Assembly: GCF_029840635.1 (NCBI RefSeq)
Contig: NZ_JAOCCU010000001.1
Span: forward strand, 62,001-126,000
Reading direction: 5' to 3'
From: Mitsuaria sp. GD03876
GTDB taxonomy: Bacteria; Pseudomonadota; Gammaproteobacteria; Burkholderiales; Burkholderiaceae_C
DNA: 64,000 nucleotides
In this document: positions 23,891 to 38,326 of the stretch, one piece after another
Position numbering within the stretch: position 1 is the first letter of the stretch
How the letters are laid out: each line of letters begins with the position of its first letter
Position numbers and translations under genes: made by a program
The notes under the pieces: generated by a model
What the model was told of the DNA's origin: nothing
What the model saw: only the letters and a program-made list of their open reading frames with translations
Database searches by the model: none

Positions 23891-25138
23891 ATGCTCCGAC
23901 GACGTCATCTCCTGTGCTGCGGCGCCGCCGCGGCGGCGGGTCTGTTCAGCGCGCTCGCGGCGGATGCCGCCGGACCGTGGCGCAATCCCTGCGGGCACCC
24001 GGCGGCGCCCATCCCGGGCGTCGATCCGCAATGACTGGAACGGACCTGGGAGGGCCTCGACCCCGCGCAGCTCTGGGACGTCCACGCCCACCTGATCGGC
24101 ACCGGCGATTCGGGCTCGGGCTGCTGGATCGCGCCCTCGCTGTCGCAGTGGTGGCATCCGGTCGAGGTCGCGCGCAAGCACGCGATCCTCAACGGCGCGT
24201 GCGTCGACGCGCGTGCCGTGGCCTCGGCCGACATCGATCGCGCTTATGTCCGGCGGCTGACCGCGCTGGCCGATGCCTTTCCCGAAGGCGCGCGATGGCT
24301 GCTCTTCGCTTTCGACGAGGCCGTCGACGAGACCGGCCGCCGCCGTCCGGACTGGACGACCTTCCATGTGCCCGATGCCTACGCCCGCGCGATCGCGGCG
24401 GAGCGGCCGGACCGCTTCGGCTGGGTCGCGAGCATCCATCCGAACCGGGAGGACGCCCTCACCCGCCTCGATCGCGCGATCGCGGGCGGCGCGCTGGCGC
24501 TCAAGTGGCTGCCCAGCAGCATGGCCATCGACCTGCGCGACCCGCGGCTGCGCCCCTTCTACGACCGCCTGGCGGCCGCGCGGCTCCCATTGATCGTCCA
24601 TTGCGGCGAGGAGCACGCCGTCCCCGGCGCCGGCCGGCAGGACCTGGGCAACCCGCTGCTGCTGCGCGAGCCGCTGCGCCACGGCGTGCGGGTGATCGCG
24701 GCGCACTGCGCCTCGCTCGGCCTGGCGATGGACCTCGACCTGCCCCGTCCCCGCCCCGCCCAGGCCTTCGACCTGTTCGCCCGCCTGATGGACGAGCCCG
24801 CCTGGCAGGGCCTGCTGCTGGGCGACGTCTCGGCGATGTTCCAGTTCAACCGCCGCCCCGAGGTCTGGCGCACCGTCCTTCGCCGCCGCGACTGGCACGA
24901 CCGCCTGCTGCACGGCTCCGACTACCCGCTGCCGGGGGTGCTGCCGCTGGTCCGCCTGCCGCAGCTGGTCCGGGCCGGCGTGCTGGACGAAGTCCACGTC
25001 GCTCCTTTGGGGGCATTGCGGGATCACCACCCCCTGATGTTTGATCTCGCCCTCAAGCGGCTCGCCCGGTGGCAGGGGGACGCGCTGGGCACCGAGGTCT
25101 TCGCGACCGCCCGGCATTTCTCCCCGCCGCCGGCCTGA
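23891..25138 (+). pseudogene. Amidohydrolase (TIM-barrel) interrupted by an in-frame TGA
   Basis: Reading from ATG 23891, the first 47 codons give a signal-peptide-like start (MLRRRHLLCCGAAAAAGLFS) and a short linker ending in GVDPQ. Codon 48 is TGA (24032-24034). The same frame then continues for 367 codons with clear amidohydrolase_2 features: WDVHAHL (metal-binding H65 and H67), IVHCGEEH, VIAAHCASLG and LHGSDYPLPG with the catalytic Asp. Restarting at the next ATG (24218) would lose the HxH motif. So it is either a recent nonsense mutation (TGG or CGA to TGA), a sequencing error, or a recoded stop. The frame is otherwise intact to 25138. Confidence 0.75.
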
Positions 25139-25335
25139 ACCGTCCCCGGACCCGGCGGTAGCACCGATCGATACCGCCCCAGGCGGCGCGCGATACTCGC
25201 CGCGAATTCACCGGGGGCCCCGGGGCGAAGGCGACGACAGTCGCGCCATCGCCACCGGACACCACCACCCAAGGGGCGACAACGACCCCGATCACATCCC
25301 GGTCCCGCGACCGGTTTCACAGGAGGAATCTCGAC

Positions 25336-25815
25336 ATGACCACCCCGTCCATCCGCATCCAGCGCGACACCCAGGCCTGGCGCTATCAGGTGTGGATCTC
25401 GTTCGGCATCAGCGTGGCGCTGTGCGCCATCGGCCTGGCCTGGCTGCCGGGCGCCGACCTGGACCGCGCCTTCATGGTCATGGGCTACGTGTTCTGCCTG
25501 TCCACCGCGTTCGCGCTGTCCAAGTACATCCGCGACAACCAGGGCGCCCGCACCGACACCCCGATGTGGGGCCTGGTCGTGTGGTCCGGCTTCGCGCTGG
25601 CCATGGGCCTGACCGGCTGGGGCCTGTACCGCATGGAGATCCAGCCCGTCTGGAAGGCCTACCTGCTGGTGTGCTGGCTCTACCTGATCTCCAACGTGTT
25701 CACGCTGGCCAAGATGCTGCGCGACGCCCATGAGGCCGACCTCGCCGACGCCCGCCTGCAAGGCCGCCGCGAGGCCCACCGCGACGCCGCCGTGGCCGCC
25801 GCGGCCGCCGAATGA
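25336..25815 (+). CDS. YiaA/YiaB-family inner membrane protein
   Basis: This 159-residue protein has four hydrophobic segments in two repeated pairs (VWISFGISVALCAIGLAWLP, FMVMGYVFCLSTAFALSKYI, GLVVWSGFALAMGLTGWGLY, AYLLVCWLYLISNVFTLAKM) and the D-R-A-F-M-V-M-G-Y pattern of the YiaA/B domain, ending in an Ala/Arg/Asp tail. Function is unknown. It starts after AGGAGGAAT and is followed by two genes with signal peptides in a tight row. Confidence 0.83.
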   Translation: MTTPSIRIQRDTQAWRYQVWISFGISVALCAIGLAWLPGADLDRAFMVMGYVFCLSTAFALSKYIRDNQGARTDTPMWGLVVWSGFALAMGLTGWGLYRMEIQPVWKAYLLVCWLYLISNVFTLAKMLRDAHEADLADARLQGRREAHRDAAVAAAAAE

Positions 25816-25895
25816 GCGTCCGGCGCCCTCGCCTTCGCCCTCGTTCCCGGCCTTCCCCGTTCCGACCTGAAGTCCCGCTCCCCAGGAGTCACTCC

Positions 25896-26339
25896 ATGCG
25901 CGCCCATCGCGTCCTTCTTTCCGTCCTGACCGCCGCCGCCCTCGCCGTCGGCACCGCCGGCGCGGCCCGCGCCCACGGCGGCCCCAGCGAAGCCAGCGTC
26001 GTGCTGTCCGCCCTGCCGGTGGCGATCTCGGTCGTCGCGCCGTCGGCGGTGCTGGTGGCCGGCGCCTCGCTGGTGGTCGTCGCGGTCGAGACCACCGCCC
26101 GCGGCACCGTCTGGGTGCTGCAGCGCGCCTCCGACGGCGCGCGCATCAGCGTCGAGTTCTCCGGCAAAGTCGTCGCCACCGCCGCCAACTCGATCGGCAC
26201 CGCCGTCGTCGTGACCGCGATCAGCACCGGCTACGTGCTGTCCGCCGCCGGCGAGGCGATCGCCTTCATCCCGAACGAGGTCGGCGCCTCGCTGCTGCAC
26301 AACGAGCGCATCACCGACAAGGACCGCGTGACGCGATGA
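25896..26339 (+). CDS. Exported small protein of unknown function (147 aa)
   Basis: The ATG at 25896 has AGGAG 7 nt upstream; an in-frame ATG at 25812, overlapping the previous stop, lacks such a site and would bury the signal peptide. The product has a signal peptide cleaved near ARAHGG and a mature part with two hydrophobic stretches rich in Val and Ala (PVAISVVAPSAVLVAGASLV, TAVVVTAISTGYVLSAAGEA). I do not recognise the family, but it is regularly found just before DUF2145 genes. Its TGA overlaps the next ATG (ATGA). Confidence 0.7.
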   Translation: MRAHRVLLSVLTAAALAVGTAGAARAHGGPSEASVVLSALPVAISVVAPSAVLVAGASLVVVAVETTARGTVWVLQRASDGARISVEFSGKVVATAANSIGTAVVVTAISTGYVLSAAGEAIAFIPNEVGASLLHNERITDKDRVTR

Positions 26340-27193
26340 GCGCCCGCGCCGCCTTCCCGTCCGCTCCGGCGCCCGCGGCCGCGAAGGCGTTGCTGGCCGC
26401 CGCGATGCTGGGCGCGCTGCTCGCCGCCGCGCCGGCCCACGCCGGCCGGGCCTGCGAGGACAAGCCCCCGACGCTCGACCAGATCCGCCGCGGCATGGAC
26501 CTCGCGCAGGCCACCGCCGCCGCGCTGGACCGCAGCGGCGCCGACGTCGTGCTGCTGGCCCGCGCCGGCCAGGACCTGAGCGAGTACGGCCTGCGCTGGT
26601 CGCATGTCGGCTTCGTCTACCGCGACACGGCGGGCACCGGTGCCCAGGCCCGCCCGGTCTGGCGCGTGGTGCACAAGCTCAACGAGTGCGGCACGGCGCT
26701 GTCCGACCTCTACCGCCAGGGCCTGGGCGAGTTCTTCATGGACAAGCCCTTCCGCTACGAGGCCGCCTTCTCGGTGCTCAAGCCCGAGCTGCAGCAGGCG
26801 CTGCTGCCGCTGCTGCGCGAGAACGCGCGCGCCGCCACGATGCATGCGCCGGCCTACAGCATGGTCGCCTACCCCTGGTCGCGCCAATACCAGCAGAGCA
26901 ACCAATGGGCGCTGGAGACGCTGGCCGCCGCCGCCGCGCCGCGCGAGGTCACCAACCGCGCGCAGGCGCAGGACTGGCTCAAGCGCCAGGGCTACCAGCC
27001 GTCCGACCTGCGCCTGTCCACCGCCAAGCGGCTGGGCGCGCGCGTCGGCATGGCCAACGTCGCCTTCGACGACCATCCGTCGGCACGCCGCTTCGCCGGC
27101 CACATCGAGACGACGACCGCCGACACGATGTTCGACTGGCTGATCCGCGGCGGCTACGGCCAGCCCGTCCAGGCCGTGAAGGCCACGCCCTGA
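26336..27193 (+). CDS. DUF2145 domain protein, exported
   Basis: This 285-residue protein has a signal peptide ending near APAHAGRA and the DUF2145 body: WSHVGFVYRD, WRVVHKLNECG, QGLGEFFMD, APAYSMVAYPWSRQYQQSNQ and MANVAFDDHP. The pattern H-x-G, C and N-Q-W resembles NlpC/P60-like or chaperone-type folds, but the activity is unknown. It is translationally coupled to the preceding gene by ATGA and closes a three-gene operon. Confidence 0.82.
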   Translation: MSARAAFPSAPAPAAAKALLAAAMLGALLAAAPAHAGRACEDKPPTLDQIRRGMDLAQATAAALDRSGADVVLLARAGQDLSEYGLRWSHVGFVYRDTAGTGAQARPVWRVVHKLNECGTALSDLYRQGLGEFFMDKPFRYEAAFSVLKPELQQALLPLLRENARAATMHAPAYSMVAYPWSRQYQQSNQWALETLAAAAAPREVTNRAQAQDWLKRQGYQPSDLRLSTAKRLGARVGMANVAFDDHPSARRFAGHIETTTADTMFDWLIRGGYGQPVQAVKATP

Positions 27194-27268
27194 CACGCGA
27201 CTGACGGACACTCCCTCGTCCCCGGTCCTCCCCGTTCCTCCCCGAACTTCCACAGCGAGCCCTCCCCC

Positions 27269-29194
27269 ATGAGCGACGCCCAACACCCCAGCCAGTTCGC
27301 CCTCCTGGGCCAACGCCGGTTCGCCCCGTTCTTCTGGACGCAGTTCCTCGGCGCGGGCAACGACAACCTGTTCAAGTTCGCCTTCACCGTGCTGGTGACC
27401 TACCAGCTCAATGTCAGCTGGCTGCCGGCGGCGCAGGCCGGGCTGGCGATCGGCGCGCTGTTCATCCTGCCGTTCGTGCTGTTCTCGGCCACCAGCGGCC
27501 AGCTCGCCGACAAGTACGACAAGGCGCGGCTGATGCGCTTCGTGAAGAGCCTGGAGATCGTCATCATGGCGCTCGCCGCGCTGGGCTTCTACACGACCAA
27601 CGTGCCGCTGCTGCTGGGCTGCGTGTTCCTGATGGGGCTGCACTCCACGCTGTTCGGGCCGGTGAAGTACGCCTACCTGCCGCAGCACCTGAACGAGCAC
27701 GAGATCACCGGCGGCAACGGCATGGTGGAGATGGGCACCTTCGTCTCGATCCTGCTGGGCAACCTGGCGGGCGGGCTGCTGGTGGCCGCGCCGATCGTCG
27801 GGCCGCAGCACGTGGCGATCGCCTGCGTGGTGGTGGCGGTGCTGGGCCGCGCGACCGCGCAGGCGATTCCCGCCAGCCCGTCGACCGATCCCGGCCTGGT
27901 CATCAACTGGAACCCGGCCACCGAGACCTGGCGCAACCTGAAGCTGGCGCACGGCCAGCTGGCGGTGTTCCGCTCGCTGCTGGGCATCTCGTGGATGTGG
28001 TTCTTCGGCGCGGTGTTCCTGGCCAACTTCCCGGCCTTCGCCAAGGAGGTGCTGCATGGCAACGAGCAGGTGGCCTCGCTGCTGCTGATGGTGTTCTCGA
28101 TCGGCATCGGCGTGGGCTCGCTGCTGTGCGAGGTGCTGTCGCGCCGCCATGTCGAGATCGGCCTGGTGCCGCTGGGCGCGATCGGCATGAGCATCTTCGC
28201 GATCGACCTGTACTTCGCCTCGCGCGGCCTGCCGCCGTCGGCGCCGCTGAGCGTGGGCGCCTTCCTGGCCAATCACGCCCACTGGCGGGTGCTGGCCGAC
28301 CTGTGCCTGCTGGCGCTGTTCGCCGGCCTGTACAGCGTGCCGATGTACGCGCTGATCCAGATGCGGGCGCAGCCCTCGCATCGCGCGCGGATCATCGCGG
28401 CCAACAACATCCTGAACGCGATCTTCATGATCGCCAGCTCGATCATGGCCGGCGCGCTGCTGGGCGCGGGGCTGTCGATCCCGCAGCTGTTCCTGGTGGT
28501 GGGCATCCTGAACGCGGTGGTCGCGTTCTACATCTTCCTGGTGGTGCCGGAGTACCTGCTGCGCTTCTTCGCTTTCGTGCTGTCGCGGCTGGTCTACCGC
28601 TTCAAGGTCCAGGGCGACCGCCACATCCCGGCGCAGGGCGCGGCGGTGCTGGTGTGCAACCACGTGAGCTTCGTCGACGCGGTGCTGCTGATGGCGGCGA
28701 GCCCGCGGCCGATCCGCTTCCTGATGGACCACCGCATCTTCAAGATCCCGGTGCTGGGCTGGATGTTCAAGCTGGCCAAGGCGATCCCGATCGCGCCGCA
28801 GAAGGAGGACCCCGCGACCTACGAGGCCGCCTTCGCCGCCGCGCAGGCGGTGCTGGACGACGGCGAGCTGGTGGGCATCTTCCCCGAGGGCGGCCTGACC
28901 CGCGACGGCGCGCTGCAGCCGTTCAAGGGCGGCGTGATGAAGCTGCTGGAGGGCCGGCCGGACCTGCCGGTGGTGCCGATGGCGCTGCAGAACCTGTGGG
29001 GGTCGTACTTCTCGCGCGTGGAGCAGGGCGCGGCGATGGTGCGGCCGTTCCGGCGCGGGATCTTCTCGCGCGTCGGGCTGGTGGCCGAGGCGCCGATCCC
29101 CGCGCGCGACGTGACGCCGGAGCTGCTGCGCGAGCGCGTGGCGGGCTTGCTGGGCGAGGCGGCCGCGGTGGCTGGCCAGCCGGCGAAGGCGTGA
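27269..29194 (+). CDS. LplT-type MFS transporter fused to PlsC-type acyltransferase
   Basis: The 641 residues join two parts. Residues 1-430 are a major facilitator domain of the lysophospholipid transporter kind (FAPFFWTQFLGAGNDNLFKF is its signature start). Residues 445-630 are a 1-acyl-glycerol-phosphate acyltransferase domain with the HX4D motif (NHVSFVDAV, near residue 465) and FPEGGLTRDG. Such fusions flip lysophospholipids inwards and re-acylate them. In Aas-type fusions a third, acyl-ACP synthetase domain follows; it is absent here. The gene is monocistronic and marks the left border of the low-GC island. Confidence 0.9.
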   Translation: MSDAQHPSQFALLGQRRFAPFFWTQFLGAGNDNLFKFAFTVLVTYQLNVSWLPAAQAGLAIGALFILPFVLFSATSGQLADKYDKARLMRFVKSLEIVIMALAALGFYTTNVPLLLGCVFLMGLHSTLFGPVKYAYLPQHLNEHEITGGNGMVEMGTFVSILLGNLAGGLLVAAPIVGPQHVAIACVVVAVLGRATAQAIPASPSTDPGLVINWNPATETWRNLKLAHGQLAVFRSLLGISWMWFFGAVFLANFPAFAKEVLHGNEQVASLLLMVFSIGIGVGSLLCEVLSRRHVEIGLVPLGAIGMSIFAIDLYFASRGLPPSAPLSVGAFLANHAHWRVLADLCLLALFAGLYSVPMYALIQMRAQPSHRARIIAANNILNAIFMIASSIMAGALLGAGLSIPQLFLVVGILNAVVAFYIFLVVPEYLLRFFAFVLSRLVYRFKVQGDRHIPAQGAAVLVCNHVSFVDAVLLMAASPRPIRFLMDHRIFKIPVLGWMFKLAKAIPIAPQKEDPATYEAAFAAAQAVLDDGELVGIFPEGGLTRDGALQPFKGGVMKLLEGRPDLPVVPMALQNLWGSYFSRVEQGAAMVRPFRRGIFSRVGLVAEAPIPARDVTPELLRERVAGLLGEAAAVAGQPAKA

Positions 29195-29264
29195 GCTGAA
29201 GTACAGTCGCGACCAACGCGCCGGTGAGACAACCCTTAATGGGCGCCCCACGGTGTAAAGAGCG

Positions 29265-29286
29265 AAGGCCTCCGCAAGGAGGCTTT
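29265..29286 (+). terminator. Terminator after the LplT-PlsC gene
   Basis: AAGGCCTCC-gcaa-GGAGGCTTT forms a 9-bp stem with one G-T pair and is followed by TCTGCT. It separates the core gene from the low-GC operon. Confidence 0.65.
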
Positions 29287-29419
29287 CTGCTATCCGCGAT
29301 CCGAAGCGCTGCTGCAATGCTCAGTGGAGCATCAATGCTGCCTACGGGTCGACCCTGCCCCGAAGTTGGGTGTCGATGATTGCCCGGCACCAAAAGACCC
29401 ATTGCTAGACTCGCCAAAA

Positions 29420-29959
29420 ATGGCAGTCTCGAAGAAGCTCTCCATGACTCAAGCCGCCAGCCGTACGGGAGGCCGTACAGAATTTGCAACCGAAGCGGAC
29501 TTTGTTGAACGTTTTGTCGGCAAGCTCTCGAAAGGTCGGACCTCGTTCGGCAAGGTGCAGATCACGCAGGAGTGGGACCATCGCGCGGGCTTCGTCGATG
29601 TCCTCGCTCGACATCGTCGCAAGACTCTGGTGGCCTTCGAAGCCAAGCTGGACAACTGGAAACGAGCATTTCATCAGGCGTATCGCAGCACTGCGTACGC
29701 CAACAAGTCGTACGTCATCGTCCCCACACATGTGGCCAATAGAGCCCTGAGGGATCGAGACGAATTCGAGTTGCGGGGGGTGGGACTATGTTCATTCGAC
29801 GGGAAGTCCGTGCAGGTGCTCATCGAAGCATCCGAGCAGGACGCACTATTGATCTGGCTGCGCGAGCAGGCGCACGAGCACTTCGACGCGCTCGAAGATG
29901 AGCTCGCAACTGAACCTGGATCAGGTCGCCGCGCAGCTCTGCCAGCAATGCGGATTTGA
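29420..29959 (+). CDS. PD-(D/E)XK nuclease-like protein, first gene of candidate defence operon
   Basis: From ATG 29420 the protein has 179 residues, with no signal or membrane segment. The core reads as a PD-(D/E)XK fold: helix FATEADFVERFVGKL, strand GFVDVLARH with D60, strand TLVAFEAKL with E74-x-K76, then a helix with a Gln (FHQAY, Q86). That is the full set of catalytic residues. The C-terminal part runs into an acidic helix. No Shine-Dalgarno is visible at 29420; 29444 is an alternative start that keeps the motif. The last 62 bases overlap the kinase gene, so the two are coupled. Base composition and codon use (many A/T-ending codons) differ from the surrounding genes. Confidence 0.65.
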   Translation: MAVSKKLSMTQAASRTGGRTEFATEADFVERFVGKLSKGRTSFGKVQITQEWDHRAGFVDVLARHRRKTLVAFEAKLDNWKRAFHQAYRSTAYANKSYVIVPTHVANRALRDRDEFELRGVGLCSFDGKSVQVLIEASEQDALLIWLREQAHEHFDALEDELATEPGSGRRAALPAMRI

Positions 29960-30746
29960 GTTTCGCGGACTCCTGGGAAAGGGCGCGTTCAAGAGCGCCT
30001 ACTTGGCCGTCCATCAGCACTACCCGTTCGCGCTGAAGATCGCCGCTGTTTCGGGCGGCGCCGACCGCCTCATGCGCGAGGCTGAGGCACTCAAGGAGTG
30101 CTCTCATCCCTCGATTGCTAAGCTACTCCAGGCGTTCTCATATGCCTACGGGCCGCATCAGCTGTGGGTTGTCTACGAGGACTACCTTGGCGGAGGCACG
30201 CTTGAGTCACGTCTGAGGATTTCACCGCTGACTGCGCACGACGTCCGCAGCATCGGCATACGGCTGGCCGAGGTGCTCGGCCATCTGGACGACAAGCGTC
30301 TGGTGCATCGAGACATCAAGCCCGCGAACATCATGTTTCGTGGCGTCAACGATGTGGACCCGGTTCTCACCGACTTCGGCATTGTCAGGATGCTGAATCA
30401 GCCAACGTTGACTCAAGCCTTCATGCAGATGGGGCCGGGGACGCCGGCTTATGCGGCTCCGGAGCAACTTACCAACGACAAGTCGCTCATCGACTGGAGA
30501 ACTGACCAGTTCGGACTAGGCATCGTGTTGGCGGAGTGCTTGTTGGGACACCACCCATTCCTGACTCAGGGTCAGAGCATTAACGACGCGATCCACAGCG
30601 TTGCTGCGCGGCAGGAGGTGCCGGCTATCAATGCTCAGCGGCTCAGAGAACTTGGATTCGACAGCGTCACCCGAGCTCTGCGCTCGTGGCCGATCGCGCG
30701 GTTCCGAAAGCCCATCGAGTTCGTCGACGCTCTTATGCGCAACTGA
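29898..30746 (+). CDS. Serine/threonine protein kinase
   Basis: This 282-residue soluble protein is a complete Hanks-type kinase domain with nothing else. The glycine loop is LLGKGAFKSAY (25-35), the ATP lysine K47 (FALKIAA), the helix-C Glu about 61-63, the catalytic loop HRDIKPANIMF (H137, D139, K141, N144), the metal motif DFG (159-161) and the APE motif PAYAAPEQ (187-189). All catalytic residues are present, so it should be active. It lacks membrane, PASTA or sensory domains, unlike housekeeping kinases. It overlaps the nuclease-like gene by 62 nt and is followed after 12 nt by the next gene. A signalling or trigger role is inferred. Confidence 0.9.
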   Translation: MSSQLNLDQVAAQLCQQCGFEFRGLLGKGAFKSAYLAVHQHYPFALKIAAVSGGADRLMREAEALKECSHPSIAKLLQAFSYAYGPHQLWVVYEDYLGGGTLESRLRISPLTAHDVRSIGIRLAEVLGHLDDKRLVHRDIKPANIMFRGVNDVDPVLTDFGIVRMLNQPTLTQAFMQMGPGTPAYAAPEQLTNDKSLIDWRTDQFGLGIVLAECLLGHHPFLTQGQSINDAIHSVAARQEVPAINAQRLRELGFDSVTRALRSWPIARFRKPIEFVDALMRN

Positions 30747-30758
30747 GGGAGCAACATC

Positions 30759-31916
30759 ATGGCCGCCTACCTCCAACAAGGCCACGCCTCTTGGAACCTA
30801 TTAGAGGAACCGGACATTGGGACCTACACCGGCATGGTGCTTAGCCCAGTCAACGATGGTCCGTCCGAAGTTGCCGCCGGGCTGCGCAGACTCGGTGACC
30901 TACGCCCCAACATTGAGGTCATTCTCGATCCGCAGCTGTACAACCCGGCCGTAGACAAGGGGCTGATGGATCGGTGGGCCTACTTCACGTCGGATTTCGC
31001 CACTGCCAACCACGGTGATGCTGCTTGGTGGACTCAGCGCGGCGTTGCCGTCGCAGATCAGGCTGCGGAGCTCGGCGTCGACGCGTTGTGCTCGCCGGCG
31101 ATGTTTCCAAAACACTTCGTCGATGACTACTACAGCCTCGTGGTGGACATTGCCGACGCAACTCGTCAGTACGCAACCGCTCAGGGTCTCGAGACGCTGC
31201 TGACAGCCATCGTCAGCCTTCGCGACCTCGCAAATCCGGCACGGGCGCTCGCGATCGCATCGATCCTTTCTCGCAGCCGCTGTGACCGCATCTATCTCAC
31301 GTTCTTGAACGAGGAGGTGCTGCAGCAAAGGGACCCGCTACACGAGCCCAATGGGCTTCCCACGGCAGTCCACCTAGTTCGACTTCTATCGAGCTACATG
31401 CGGGTGCACGTCGCGTTCGCGGCTCATGACGCCGTGATGTGGAAGTACGCCGGTGCAGCCGATGTCTCCACGGGCAAGTTCATGAACCTTCGGAGGTTCT
31501 CTCCTGGCCGGTGGGAGGAGGCGCAAGGGCGCGGAACGCAGACTGCGTACTGGACCGAGGGCAGTCTGCTGACGCTGCTGCGTCCTGCAGACGTGGCTCT
31601 ACTACGAAGGAATGGATGGTTCGACGGTCGCGATCTCTCGGACAACCCTGCAAGTCTTCGCATCACGGACTTGATCGTCAACGGATCGAAAACACTTTGG
31701 GTGAAAGAGTCGTGGCTGCAGCACCTCCGCTGCATCAGCAACTGTGAAGCACAGTGGAACGAAGGACCAGATGCGGCCGAAGCATTCCTCGTCGAGTCGG
31801 ATCGACTGTGGGGCGACATCATCGACACGCGCCGATTGCTGCTTCAAGACCGCCAGAACAACGGAAATCATGTGCGCCACTGGCTGAACGCTGTTCGAGA
31901 AGGCGGCCGGCGTTAG
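30759..31916 (+). CDS. Unrecognised soluble protein, probable alpha/beta barrel (385 aa)
   Basis: I do not recognise a named family. The protein has no signal peptide or membrane helix. Its first 270 residues alternate short hydrophobic strands with helices in TIM-barrel style: TGMVLSPVN, NIEVILDPQLYNP, VDALCSPAMFP, GLETLLTAIVSL, DRIYLTFLNEE, MRVHVAFAAHDAVMWKYAGA and then a striking DVSTGKFMNLRRFSPGRW. Asp, His and Lys at strand ends suggest an enzyme active site. The layout recalls tRNA-guanine transglycosylase-like barrels such as those used in DNA deazaguanine modification, but no signature of them is present. It starts 12 nt after the kinase with GGGAG upstream and ends 13 nt before the Abi_C gene. 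Confidence 0.6.
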   Translation: MAAYLQQGHASWNLLEEPDIGTYTGMVLSPVNDGPSEVAAGLRRLGDLRPNIEVILDPQLYNPAVDKGLMDRWAYFTSDFATANHGDAAWWTQRGVAVADQAAELGVDALCSPAMFPKHFVDDYYSLVVDIADATRQYATAQGLETLLTAIVSLRDLANPARALAIASILSRSRCDRIYLTFLNEEVLQQRDPLHEPNGLPTAVHLVRLLSSYMRVHVAFAAHDAVMWKYAGAADVSTGKFMNLRRFSPGRWEEAQGRGTQTAYWTEGSLLTLLRPADVALLRRNGWFDGRDLSDNPASLRITDLIVNGSKTLWVKESWLQHLRCISNCEAQWNEGPDAAEAFLVESDRLWGDIIDTRRLLLQDRQNNGNHVRHWLNAVREGGRR

Positions 31917-31929
31917 GAGGATCAATCAG

Positions 31930-32784
31930 ATGAAGAAACTGATCCCTGCACCGGTGCTATCCCTGGTCGCGGACTTTGTCGCCGACCAGGAGACCCACGC
32001 CAGCCTGGACAGCCTCTTCACCTATGCGGAAGCGCCGGGCGATCCTCCGCCAGGCAGCAAGCCAGTGAAGGCGCTCACTTGGCTGCGGGCCACCAACAAG
32101 GATCACCCTGAACCTCTTTCAGTACTGGGGCGGATCATTCACCAGTACATGGAGGCGCCCGAGGTAGCTCAGGACTACAAGTTCGACGATTTGGGGGGGG
32201 ACGAGCCTGAATGGAGCGTCAAGAAGCGCGAGACGGTGCGGAGGATCGAAGCCGCGCTTGCTAAGTATGGGCTTCAATACCGAATGGGCGGCCACATCAC
32301 CGACGGCGGGATGGCGCCCAGCAAGACATTGGGCGAACTTATCCACGGGCGTGACATGCCTGCCATTCATCGGGAGTTTGACCGGGCGATGGAATCAGTC
32401 GAGGCGAAGCCTCGGGACGCAGTGTCCGCAGCTGCGAACGTACTGGAGTCCGTGTTCAAGGTCTACATTGAAGACAATGCCCTGACCATGCCAGACAAGC
32501 AAGACCTGCAGCCAGTCTTCAAGGTGGTGCGAGCCCATCTTGGGCTCGATCCGGCAAGCGTCGAGGACCAGGACCTCCAACGCATCATCACTGGGCTGTT
32601 CTCCGTGGTCGACGGAATCGGTGCGTTGCGAACGCATGCCAGCAGCGCTCACAGCGAGGGCCGGAAAAGCTACAAGCTCGAGCCAAGGCACGCACGGTTG
32701 GCCATCAATGCTGCCCACTCAGTGGCCACATTCATTCTGGAGACGTGGGATAAGCGGGCAACTGCGCAGCGTTCGACCACCTAG
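31930..32784 (+). CDS. Abortive infection protein with Abi_C (HEPN-like) domain
   Basis: This 284-residue protein starts after an AGGAGG. The C-terminal part, residues about 163-273, matches the Abi_C family: DAVSAAANVLESVFKVYIED, QDLQPVFKVVRAHLGL, IITGLFSVVDGIGALR and RHARLAINAAHSVATFILET. Inside it, R234-x6-H241 (RTHASSAH) has the spacing of HEPN ribonuclease motifs. The N-terminal 140 residues are a helical region of unknown role. Proteins with this domain occur in phage-exclusion loci, so this is the likely effector of the operon, probably an RNase held in check until infection. Confidence 0.78.
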   Translation: MKKLIPAPVLSLVADFVADQETHASLDSLFTYAEAPGDPPPGSKPVKALTWLRATNKDHPEPLSVLGRIIHQYMEAPEVAQDYKFDDLGGDEPEWSVKKRETVRRIEAALAKYGLQYRMGGHITDGGMAPSKTLGELIHGRDMPAIHREFDRAMESVEAKPRDAVSAAANVLESVFKVYIEDNALTMPDKQDLQPVFKVVRAHLGLDPASVEDQDLQRIITGLFSVVDGIGALRTHASSAHSEGRKSYKLEPRHARLAINAAHSVATFILETWDKRATAQRSTT

Positions 32785-32899
32785 TAGGGCCGCGATCCCT
32801 TTAAGCCAGTTCGGGCGGGCGATTGGGATTGCCCTTGCCGCCGCGCTCGAAGGACCGCGTCGCTGGTGGCACCGTCGCGAAGGGGACGAAGACGGTTCC

Positions 32900-33409
32900 T
32901 CACCCCCTCCGCGCCCGTAGCATCACGCGCCGGACCCGCAGCCGGATCGCCCTTGCCGAGCGCCACACCGCGCTCGCGCGCACCCAGGCCAGCAGGCCGT
33001 CCTTCCACACCGTCCAGCGCGCGTGCAGCCGCGCGAACCACGGCAGGCTCATCAGCGCGGGCTGCGTCAACGCGAAGATCCGCGCCACGACCGCCGTGCC
33101 GACGACCTTGGCCAGCACGATGACCGCCAGGCCCAGCCCCGGCCGGCCGATGCCGATCAGCCACAGCGCCAGCAGCTTGACCGGCAGCAGCAAAAAGCCC
33201 GGCAGGAAGAACACCACCAGCGCGACATAGGGCGGCAGCCGCCGCACCAGCGCCTCGAGCTGCCGGAACACCGGCAGCCGGCCGATCGCCGCCATCCACC
33301 GCTGCAGCGGTTCCCAGCCCCATTCCTCGAAGAGGATGACCAGGGCCAGCACCACGCGGACCAGCCAGCGCAGCGGCGCGAGCATCGACTTGAACATGGC
33401 CGGGATCAT
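32900..33409 (-). CDS. Membrane protein of unknown function (169 aa)
   Basis: The protein has two or three hydrophobic segments (LVRVVLALVILFEEWGW, YVALVVFFLPGFLLLPVKLL, GLGLAVIVLAKVVGTAVVAR) and a strongly basic C-terminal tail. The spacing and the F-L-P-G-F-L-L-L-P-V-K pattern are typical of a conserved but uncharacterised Burkholderiales inner membrane protein. GC content and codon use return to the genome norm here, so this gene marks the right border of the island. The ATG at 33409 is used; 33397 is also possible. Confidence 0.65.
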   Translation of the reverse strand: MIPAMFKSMLAPLRWLVRVVLALVILFEEWGWEPLQRWMAAIGRLPVFRQLEALVRRLPPYVALVVFFLPGFLLLPVKLLALWLIGIGRPGLGLAVIVLAKVVGTAVVARIFALTQPALMSLPWFARLHARWTVWKDGLLAWVRASAVWRSARAIRLRVRRVMLRARRG

Positions 33410-33477
33410 GCCAGGGCAGCCCCCGCGACCCCCATGCCAGAATCGCCGCCCGCCCCTCGACGGCCCGAGATCCCGCC

Positions 33478-34947
33478 ATGCAAGACCCCGTTTCCCCGCT
33501 GCGCGACGCCGCCCTCGACCACCTGTCCGCCGGTCGGTCGACGCAGGCGATCGCCGCCTATGAAGCGCTGCTGCGCGTCACGCCGGGCGAGCCGGACGAC
33601 TGGTTCAACCTCGCCTGGCTGCAGCGGTCCGGGCGCGACTTCGACGGCGCGCTCGCGTCCTACGACCGCGCCCGCGCGCTCGGCGCCGAGGGGCCCGAGG
33701 AGATCCACCTCAACCGCGCCGTGATCCTGACCGAGGACCTGCGCCGCGAGGACGAGGCGATGGCGGAACTCGAGCGCGCGCTGGCGATCGCGCCGCGTTT
33801 CCTGCCGGCGCTGGTCAACCTGGGCAACCTGCACGAGCAGCGCGGCGAACGCGCCCAGGCGCAGCGCCGCTACGAGGAGGCGCTCGCCGTCGAGCCCGGC
33901 CATGCGCTGGCGCTGTCCCGGCTGGTGAACCTGCGCCGCTTCGAGGCGGCCGACGATCCGCTCATCCAGCGCCTGCGCCAGGCGCTCGGCGTGCGCGGCC
34001 GCCATCCGGCCGAACACGCCGACCTCGCCCACGCGCTGGGCAAGGCGCTCGACGACGCCGGCGCCTACGACGAGGCCTTCGCCGCCTACGCGCACGCCAA
34101 CCAGGCCGCCCGGCACGCCCACGGTCCCCGGCCGCTGCGCTACGACCGCGCGGCGCATGAGCACCTCGTCGACGCGCTGATCCGCCAGTCCCGACAGCCG
34201 GTGCCGCCGTCCCGGGACGACGCGCCCGCGCCGTCGGCGTTCATCTGCGGCATGTTCCGGTCGGGATCGACGCTGCTCGAGCAGATCCTGGGCAGCCATC
34301 CCGGCGCGACCGCCGGCGGCGAGATCGACCTGCTGCCCGCCCTCGCCCAGCGGCACGTGCTGCCGCCGCTGTCGCACCCCGACCAGCCGCTGCCCGCGGA
34401 ACTCGCCGAGCGGATGCGCCGCGAGTACCGCGACGGCGTCGCGCTGCGTTTCCCCGGCGCGTCGCTGCTGACCGACAAGCGGCCGGACAACTTCCTGTTC
34501 ATCGGGCTGATCAAGCAGCTGTTCCCCGACGCCAAGATCCTGCACACGCGCCGCGCGGTGCTGGACAACTGCCTGTCGGTGTTCTTCCTGCACCTGGGGC
34601 CGTCGATGTCGTACGCGCTGGACCTGGAGGACATCGCCCATTGGTACCGGCAGTACCGCCGGCTGATGGCGCATTGGAAGTCGCTCTACGGCGACGACAT
34701 CCACGATGTCGACTACGACGCGCTGGTCACCGACCCGCGTCCGCAGATCGAGCGCGCGCTGGCGCATGTCGGGCTCGGCTGGGACGACGCCTGCCTGGAC
34801 TTCCATGCGAGCAAGTCGACCGTCGCGACGCCCAGCAACTGGCAGGTGCGCCAGCCGCTGTACCAGCGCTCGTCGGGCCGGTGGCGGAACTACGAGCGCC
34901 ACCTCGGCGCGCTGCGCGCGGCGCTGGGCGAGTTCGCGGACGAATGA
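33478..34947 (+). CDS. TPR repeat sulfotransferase
   Basis: The 489-residue protein has at least four tetratricopeptide repeats (residues 10-145, for example DDWFNLAWLQRSGRDFDGAL and PALVNLGNLHEQRGERAQAQ) and then a PAPS-dependent sulfotransferase domain. The 5'-phosphosulfate loop is FICGMFRSGSTLLEQI (255-270), and the second PAPS site is KILHTRRAVLDNCLS. It would transfer sulfate from PAPS to a protein, sugar or other acceptor that the TPR part binds. The CysC gene, which makes PAPS, lies next door on the opposite strand, which supports this role. Confidence 0.88.
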   Translation: MQDPVSPLRDAALDHLSAGRSTQAIAAYEALLRVTPGEPDDWFNLAWLQRSGRDFDGALASYDRARALGAEGPEEIHLNRAVILTEDLRREDEAMAELERALAIAPRFLPALVNLGNLHEQRGERAQAQRRYEEALAVEPGHALALSRLVNLRRFEAADDPLIQRLRQALGVRGRHPAEHADLAHALGKALDDAGAYDEAFAAYAHANQAARHAHGPRPLRYDRAAHEHLVDALIRQSRQPVPPSRDDAPAPSAFICGMFRSGSTLLEQILGSHPGATAGGEIDLLPALAQRHVLPPLSHPDQPLPAELAERMRREYRDGVALRFPGASLLTDKRPDNFLFIGLIKQLFPDAKILHTRRAVLDNCLSVFFLHLGPSMSYALDLEDIAHWYRQYRRLMAHWKSLYGDDIHDVDYDALVTDPRPQIERALAHVGLGWDDACLDFHASKSTVATPSNWQVRQPLYQRSSGRWRNYERHLGALRAALGEFADE

Positions 34948-35031
34948 AGCAGGACGGCGTGACGGGGATCGCCGCGCGGCGATGAACGCGCCACGGTGAC
35001 CGTGGCCCGGTGAACCCGCCGCGGGCGGCGC

Positions 35032-35634
35032 TCAGCCGCCGAAGATCCCGGCCGCGCGCAGGCGCTCGAACACGGTGTCCGCCGCCTCGTCCGGCGACAC
35101 CGTCGCGGTGCGCAGGCGCAGCTCAGGCGCCTCCGGCGGCTCGTACGGCGAGTCGATGCCGGTGAAGTCCTTCAACAGCCCGGCCCGCGCCTTGCGGTAG
35201 AGGCCCTTCGGATCGCGCTGCTCGGCCACGGCCAGCGGCACGTCGACGTGCACCTCGAAGAACTCGCCCGGCGCGAAGCGCTCGCGCACCGCCTGGCGGT
35301 CCTGCCGGAACGGCGAGATCAGCGCCACGATCACGATCAGCCCCGCGTCGGCCATCAGCCGCGCGACCTCGCCGACGCGGCGGATGTTTTCGACCCGGTC
35401 CGCCGCGGCGAAGCCCAGGTCGCGGTTCAGCCCGCCGCGCAGCAGGTCGCCGTCGAGCAGGTAGGTGTGCAGGCCGCGTGCATGCAGGCGTTGCTCGAGC
35501 CGGTCGGCCAACGTCGACTTGCCGGCGCCGGACAGCCCGGTGAGCCACACCACCGCCGGCCGGTGGCCCTTGAGCGCGCCGCGCGCGGCGCGGTCCAGCT
35601 GCAGTTGCGGGGCGAAGGGCGCGGCGCCGCTCAT
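35032..35634 (-). CDS. cysC: Adenylyl-sulfate kinase
   Basis: This 200-residue enzyme phosphorylates APS to PAPS with ATP. The Walker A loop is GLSGAGKST (33-41), followed by the substrate motifs [18 protein letters not shown] and [10 protein letters not shown]. There is no fused sulfurylase (CysN) domain. It sits between tgt (11-nt gap upstream) and the convergent TPR-sulfotransferase gene, so it may serve sulfation and not only assimilation. The start at 35634 gives the usual short N-terminal extension before the kinase core. Confidence 0.93.
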
Positions 35635-35645
35635 CGGGCCGGTCC

Positions 35646-37674
<2,029 letters not shown>

Positions 37675-37729
37675 CCCGCGAGCCGGTCCAGGCCCGGGCC
37701 CGCCGGCGTGCGACGCGACAATCGCGCCC

Positions 37730-38326
37730 ATGCCGTCGAGCCTCGCCGCCCCCGTCCACGCCGAACTGATCATCAAGAAGAGCCGCTTCCTCGGCTGCGT
37801 CGAGGCGGTGCCGGACCGCGCGGCGGCGCTGGCGCGCGTGGCGCAACTGCGCGCCGAGCATCCGGGCGCCGCGCATGTGTGCTGGGCGCTGATGGCGGGC
37901 GGGCAGTCGGCGGCCAACGACGACGGCGAGCCCGGCGGCACGGCGGGCCGGCCGATGCTGGAGGTGCTGCGGCACCAGGACCTGGACGGCGTGCTGGCGA
38001 CGGTGGTGCGCTACTTCGGCGGCGTGAAGCTGGGCGCGGGCGGCCTGGTGCGGGCCTACACGGACGCGGTGGCGCAGGCGCTGCTGACCGCGGAGAAGGT
38101 GCCGATGGTGCGGCTGAAGACCCTGCGCTGCACGCTGCCCTACGCGCAGGAGGGGCTGCTGCGCCGCGAGGCGGGGAAGGCCGGCGCCGAGCTGGTGGAT
38201 GTGGCGCATGGCGCGCTGGTCGAGGTGACGCTGCGCGTGCCGGAGACGGCAGCGGAGGCGTTCGTGGCGCTGCTCAACGAGGCCGGGCAAGGCCGGATCG
38301 GGTGGTTGCAGCCGCCGGAGGACTAG
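37730..38326 (+). CDS. YigZ/IMPACT-family protein
   Basis: This 198-residue protein matches YigZ: IIKKSRFLGCVEAV, then HVCWALMAGG, NDDGEPGGTAGRPMLEVL and VRYFGGVKLGAGGLVRAYTD. These motifs define the N-terminal IMPACT domain (ribosomal S5-like fold); a smaller ferredoxin-like C-terminal domain follows. Its cellular role is not settled. The stop codon TAG overlaps the stop of the hipA remnant on the other strand. Confidence 0.88.
   Translation: MPSSLAAPVHAELIIKKSRFLGCVEAVPDRAAALARVAQLRAEHPGAAHVCWALMAGGQSAANDDGEPGGTAGRPMLEVLRHQDLDGVLATVVRYFGGVKLGAGGLVRAYTDAVAQALLTAEKVPMVRLKTLRCTLPYAQEGLLRREAGKAGAELVDVAHGALVEVTLRVPETAAEAFVALLNEAGQGRIGWLQPPED

Follow-up and report, generated by a model that had tools for sequence, protein, structure and literature searches.

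A kinase, a nuclease-like protein and a predicted barrel protein form a recurrent three-gene module in an inserted operon of Mitsuaria sp. GD03876

Organization of the locus and its insertion site

A 64,000-nucleotide (nt) stretch of the Mitsuaria sp. GD03876 genome (contig NZ_JAOCCU010000001.1, positions 62,001–126,000; hereafter the window) possesses four adjacent genes, which code for a PD-(D/E)XK nuclease-like protein, a Ser/Thr kinase, a predicted TIM-barrel protein and an Abi_C/AbiJ protein. A preliminary description of the window regarded them as an undescribed four-gene defence system in which the kinase releases a nuclease or RNase effector. In this study, we re-examined the locus and compared it with related loci, and we found that genes 1–3 are a conserved and co-inherited unit to which gene 4 does not belong. 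The features of the locus are as follows (aa, amino acids).

29420–29959, + strand: gene 1, short form of a PD-(D/E)XK nuclease-like protein, 179 aa, with D60, E74, K76, W80 and Q86
29898–30746, + strand: gene 2, soluble Hanks-type Ser/Thr kinase, 282 aa, assigned from its Pkinase score (115.4 bits) and catalytic residues
30759–31916, + strand: gene 3, predicted TIM-barrel protein without an assigned activity, 385 aa, fold taken from a structure model
31930–32784, + strand: gene 4, Abi_C/AbiJ protein, 284 aa, with R234-x6-H241; accessory, outside the conserved module
29292–32898 (approximate), strand not given: inserted segment, its limits taken from alignment to the operon-free orthologous sites of six relatives

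Gene 1 and the kinase gene overlap by 62 nt, and gaps of 12 and 13 nt separate the kinase gene from gene 3 and gene 3 from the Abi_C gene, respectively. The coordinates, strand and spacing given in the preliminary description agreed with the sequence, and the residues it had named (D60, E74/K76, D139 of the kinase and R234/H241) are present in the translations. The start codon of gene 1 is uncertain, with an in-frame GTG at 29324. The guanine-plus-cytosine (GC) content of the operon is 0.588–0.612 in six 500-base bins (29500–32499) and, as had been remarked, lies below that of the flanks, which is 0.660–0.754 upstream (bins 24000–29499) and 0.662–0.758 downstream (bins 33000–37999). A simple scan of the locus found no promoter of the sigma-70 type. 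The upstream terminator was not among the two hits of the scan, although a hairpin (GGCCTCC..GGAGGC) is readable at approximately 29264–29285 and recurs in several relatives.

The upstream flank (27269–29194) is present in all 16 genomes of the genus, that of GD03876 included. Insertion sites were examined in 7 of the 15 relatives (G1050, G1047, G736, G1049, G674, G1044 and G516). At the first six of these sites the operon is missing and the window flanks lie 61–562 bases apart; the alignment of G516 covers the upstream flank only. The insert is about 3.6 kb in size, and its edges vary with the relative used (left, 29157–29292; right, 32899–32945), the widest reading starting near 29160. No common direct or inverted 10-base word was found when the two edges were compared. 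Two of the relatives, G1050 and G1044, possess the adjoining window stretch 32900–36740, which extends from the insertion to the host tgt gene (35661–36737, minus strand); G1047, G736, G1049 and G674 lack it. It looks like a spot of repeated gain and loss. Because this stretch also differs among the relatives, we regard the insertion spot as variable.

Co-occurrence and co-inheritance of genes 1–3

Gene 3 was found at 15 places, the window counted, and at 14 of them it is adjoined by the kinase gene and gene 1. A 16th match (G160; 48 residues, E 9e-4, two stops) proved spurious when its region was examined and was dropped. The grouping of genes 1–3 is beyond chance, since the trio is found again at 13 places outside the window, and these genes almost certainly function together. 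The comparison across genomes that the preliminary description had called for thus bore out genes 1–3, while the Abi_C gene was found at none of these places. Carriers of gene 3 include the Polaromonas plasmid pPNAP03, plasmids of the haloarchaeon Natribaculum and Kocuria rosea, a Variovorax genome, a Ramlibacter metagenome-assembled genome, two more genomes of the family, three more of the order Burkholderiales, and the IMG/VR viral contigs L013, L014, L041 and L042. The frequency, with the GD03876 genome counted, is 3/399 in the family, 4/349 in the order (one without the trio) and 1/274 in the class; a single-sequence search of the phylum gave 2/398, one being the spurious match. No gene 3 relative was found in genome contigs searched with the window protein, in viral contigs searched with single proteins or in phage records.

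Gene 1, the kinase gene and gene 3 lie in this order on one strand at 11 of the 14 loci, and at L010, L011 and the Kocuria locus gene 1 converges on the kinase–gene 3 pair. With the starts used, the kinase gene begins before gene 1 ends in 9 of the 10 same-strand loci tabulated (L042 is outside the table). On the Kocuria plasmid the kinase and gene 3 are joined into one protein of 675 aa (WP_290468116.1). The module is also carried next to genes of mobile elements: it lies behind a head-morphogenesis gene (phrog_2468, E 1.6e-20) in L013 and a tape-measure-like gene (phrog_12506, E 3.3e-8) in L041, and in L131 it follows TniB and TniQ genes, which score 238.9 and 103.7 bits, respectively. In Natribaculum it is found approximately 1.4 kb behind an Eco57I-type methylase gene.

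An earlier profile search included the loci themselves and alone proves nothing for kinship. As an independent test, profiles were built from five close members only and applied to seven distant loci (L003, L010, L011, L014, L015, L041 and L042). All seven loci returned a match to the kinase profile at E 2e-25 or better and to the gene 1 profile at E 1e-7 to 9e-15, and five of the seven a match to the gene 3 profile at E 3e-10 or better; the two pieces of gene 3 in L011 score 1.6e-4 and 0.0095. In addition, the pairwise distances of the three proteins correlate with each other at r 0.957–0.974 over 13 loci, a value reached by none of 2000 label permutations; this correlation speaks for co-inheritance, not for contact, and close members weigh heavily in it. 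L011 was left out of the distance test and of the gene 3 alignments, and its gene 3 pieces were searched separately. In that locus gene 3 is interrupted by an in-frame TAG (L011:4371–5561), and this copy of the module may be decaying.

Characteristics of the module proteins

The kinase scores 115.4 bits against Pfam Pkinase (PF00069; cut-off 31.7), in agreement with the intact kinase described before. K47, E61, H137-R138-D139, N144, D159 and G161 are kept in the kinases of all 14 loci, which thereby display the Lys/HRD/Asn/DxG pattern of Hanks-type kinases. Its best matches in PADLOC are mad6 (E 2.1e-40) and PD-T4-6 (E 7.9e-35), and its list of Pfam matches at E 1 contains no GHKL family.

Gene 1 of all 14 module loci contains G-x-x-D, E-x-K, W and Q in a pattern search, in which the D of the long forms was assigned by pattern rather than alignment; the D and E-x-K that mark PD-(D/E)XK nucleases are thus in place. 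The structure model of gene 1 has a low mean predicted local distance difference test score (pLDDT, 61.3); the order of its elements is nuclease-like, and the best solved-structure matches of this low-confidence model are SPO1766 and NucS/EndoMS. The window protein falls below every Pfam and NCBIfam cut-off, matches no PADLOC 2.0.0 model at E 1 and, by sequence, matches no solved structure at E 10. Csa3, CasR and CARF3 gave stray weak matches (E 0.0008–0.007), each to one of nine members and none to the window protein, which were not used as evidence. In L041 and L042 the gene for a 65-aa protein (L041:6131–6328 and L042:6131–6328) shares 4 bases with the start of gene 1. The L041 sequence weakly matches ribbon-helix-helix (RHH) proteins, and the RHH-like protein is possibly a regulator of the module.

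The model of gene 3 is a TIM barrel, also of low confidence (mean pLDDT 54.7), with which the earlier wording "barrel-like" agrees. D57-P58-x-x-Y61, G8, P30, P113 and G239 are kept in 13/13 gene 3 proteins. None of 11 members matches a Pfam or NCBIfam family at E 0.01, PHROGs likewise yield none for gene 3, and the window protein matches no PADLOC 2.0.0 model at E 1. A type I specificity subunit (E 0.0037, 1/11 members) and PDC-M53A (E 0.014, one member) gave stray weak matches, which were not used, and the search of solved structures by sequence gave a single match, at E 1.1. In L133 a 429-aa protein distantly related to gene 3 is encoded just ahead of Xre-type antitoxin-like and RES-domain genes (L133:4674–6930), and members of the barrel family may take part in other conflict modules too.

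Gene 4 is an accessory neighbour

Gene 4 scores 77.1 bits against Abi_C of Pfam (cut-off 24), as the preliminary assignment implied, and matches AbiJ of PADLOC at E 9.6e-17. R234 and H241 are kept in 4/4 aligned relatives, and the protein shares 47–58% identity with three plasmid homologues. AbiJ has been listed as a HEPN family with an Rx4-6H motif (PMC3710099); gene 4 resembles AbiJ/Abi_C in having the Abi_C domain and R-x6-H and shows no notable difference from what is given there. No match to a solved structure was obtained from its sequence at E 10.

The conservation of all four genes as one system, as first proposed, was not borne out. A tblastn search of the stretches surrounding the 13 other module loci found Abi_C at none of them, the best match covering 37 residues at E 0.15, where the stretches of L006 and L011 finish soon after the module. 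Relatives of Abi_C are present on 177 plasmids, 114 of them aligning over at least 80% of the protein; none of the three plasmid neighbourhoods examined contains the module. In one of them the relative lies beside a restriction-modification pair, and in the other two its neighbours are hypothetical and plasmid genes. Because Abi_C is absent from the stretches around 13/13 other loci and lies without the module in the three plasmid neighbourhoods, it is not a fixed member of the module. Judging from sequence comparison, gene 4 is a common stand-alone phage-defence gene that is an accessory neighbour of the module here. Likewise, the proposal that the kinase releases an Abi_C RNase gains no support from the comparison, in which the constant partners of the kinase are the barrel protein and the PD-(D/E)XK protein. 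It is thus most unlikely that the four genes make up one system with Abi_C (HEPN) as an integral RNase effector under kinase control, even though the 13-nt gap, a good AGGAGG ribosome-binding site ahead of gene 4, the equally low GC content and the common insertion would fit such a system.

Other fourth genes were considered as well. The genes at this position code for a CARF-PDDEXK-like protein in Polaromonas, a metallophosphoesterase in Natribaculum and proteins without a family in Ramlibacter and L041/L042; they display no common pattern and some loci have none, so a swappable fourth gene is not claimed.

Relationship to known systems

In PglW of BREX type 2 and some DndF proteins, a NERD nuclease domain of the PD-(D/E)XK class is coupled with an active Ser/Thr/Tyr kinase, and a suicidal or backup action has been proposed for them (PMC12839542, PMC10853773). 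The trio resembles PglW and kinase-bearing DndF, as portrayed there, in pairing such a nuclease with a kinase, and the window kinase aligns with PglW at E 1.1e-21. However, in those systems the domains are parts of a single large protein that also carries a kinase copy without activity, whereas the window has separate small proteins and a third, TIM-barrel partner. The kinase scores 73.4 bits against the PglW equivalog NF033442 (cut-off 990), which does not place it in BREX type 2. Likewise, the score against the MAD6 equivalog NF047741 is 93.7 bits (cut-off 460), which does not place it in MADS; Mad6 of MADS and the single kinase PD-T4-6 are its best PADLOC matches, the latter reflecting kinase kinship only, and neither gene 1 nor gene 3 matches a component of MADS.

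The position of the kinase gene beside varied immune genes recalls CapK/CapS, a kinase–substrate pair controlling immune operons. CapK is a GHKL-type kinase with STAS and helix-turn-helix domains (PMC13373217), and kinship was rejected since a Hanks-type kinase is encoded in the window. DS-6 of DefensePredictor also has a Ser/Thr kinase, and protection by DS-6 requires the predicted catalytic residue of this enzyme; the kinase is of the HipA type and has a different partner (DUF3037/DUF1829) (PMC13092281). The trio matches no named system in Pfam, NCBIfam, PHROGs or PADLOC 2.0.0, whose models date from 2023, so that newer catalogues may hold a name. The operon can be called undescribed, as had been claimed, in that genes 1 and 3 of the window are without a PADLOC 2.0.0 match, and we found no description of the trio in the titles and abstracts searched, a scope that leaves out most subscription papers and preprints.

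Proposed role and alternative explanations

Conflict between genetic elements fits the trio best, because it is a small, patchily distributed unit that combines a nuclease motif with a signalling kinase and is found on mobile elements and viral contigs. The foreign, defence-like character attributed to the kinase–nuclease operon stands, and the trio probably acts in conflicts with phages and further mobile elements, or in defence. Given that PglW and some DndF pair such a nuclease with an active kinase, we propose a kinase-gated nuclease with gene 3 as a sensor or signal enzyme. We hold with moderate confidence that genes 1–3 are one mobile conflict or defence module in which a kinase–barrel unit controls the nuclease. 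This reading is supported by the conservation and co-inheritance of the trio, the catalytic residues kept in the kinase and nuclease, the Kocuria fusion, the plasmid, viral-contig and transposon-region carriers and the insertion in the GD03876 genome itself. In the proposed sequence of steps, gene 3 would be the direct partner of the kinase and would sense or process a small ligand that appears on infection; its response to the ligand would switch the kinase on, and the nuclease would be released once gene 1, gene 3 or a protein of the cell had been phosphorylated, and would then cut DNA. This chain from sensing through the kinase to the nuclease is tentative and, taken as a whole, doubtful: the defence role and what is sensed, phosphorylated and cut are all inferred.

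Several points count against the proposed module. L041 and L042 differ by only 1, 3 and 5 residues in the three proteins and are nearly one observation; a converging gene 1, as at 3 of the 14 loci, need not be co-expressed with the kinase–gene 3 pair; and the gene 3 relative in L133, matched at approximately 92 of 389 positions (E 4.1e-6), has neither the kinase nor gene 1. The gene 3 part of the Kocuria protein is missed by the five-member profile, its link being a tblastn match from L010 (E 5e-5), and kinases are so common that a match to the kinase profile says little by itself. The case for defence comes from context, as genes 1 and 3 of the window match none of the known defence families; both structure models are of low confidence, and the function assigned to the module is a prediction from sequence.

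An addiction system resembling toxin–antitoxin pairs, in which gene 1 is a toxic nuclease silenced by the kinase–barrel unit and the trio stabilises plasmids or prophages rather than acting against phages, is improbable. The plasmids and viral contigs among the carriers, the small RHH-like gene overlapping gene 1 in L041/L042 and the RES–Xre pair beside the L133 relative would suit it, but the window copy is a chromosomal insertion without a visible element, and a catalytic kinase with a conserved barrel would seem elaborate for an antitoxin. Phages or plasmids might carry the module as regulatory or counter-defence cargo that acts on host functions via phosphorylation and not in defence of the cell. 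Its position among structural genes of phage-like contigs accords with this, whereas the nuclease motif conserved in 14/14 loci and the chromosomal copies outside recognised phages do not, and we give the cargo explanation little probability.

The barrel and its D-P motif gave rise to the idea, kept as a rival, that gene 3 is a base-exchanging or base-modifying enzyme like tRNA-guanine transglycosylase (TGT), which would mark the DNA or RNA of its own cell while gene 1 cuts what is unmarked and the kinase regulates. None of 11 gene 3 members matches Pfam TGT (PF01702) at E 0.01, and many unrelated barrels score alike against the gene 3 model. The profile–profile probability for TGTs is 0.1–0.3%, although a control pair of TGT and DeoC also gave 0.1%, so that this comparison cannot separate barrel families. 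A modification-restriction system of this kind is very improbable.

If the module is indeed immune, a protein family without an assigned function (gene 3) would enter prokaryotic defence, and the trio would provide a small three-protein setting for the control of a nuclease by a Hanks-type kinase, which is hard to study in the very large PglW. Its presence on viral contigs, plasmids and an archaeal plasmid and behind transposon genes suggests a travelling conflict module outside the 2023 PADLOC models. It would be a new type of immune signalling in bacteria, archaea and their viruses if the TIM-barrel enzyme made, destroyed or read a nucleotide-like signal or base modification and, with its own kinase, used phosphorylation to gate the PD-(D/E)XK nuclease, with Abi_C and other later genes as optional additions; we consider this broader picture unlikely.

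Genes downstream of the module in other carriers

In the Polaromonas locus a 357-aa protein (L002:9465–10538) is encoded approximately 315 bases after the module; a CARF-PDDEXK profile gives a weak match to the C-terminal part of this protein (E 1.4e-4). Downstream of the module in L131 (L131:9528–12144), genes that by eye resemble defence or signalling cargo are present, one with a TIR-like C-terminal part and one phosphoesterase-like.

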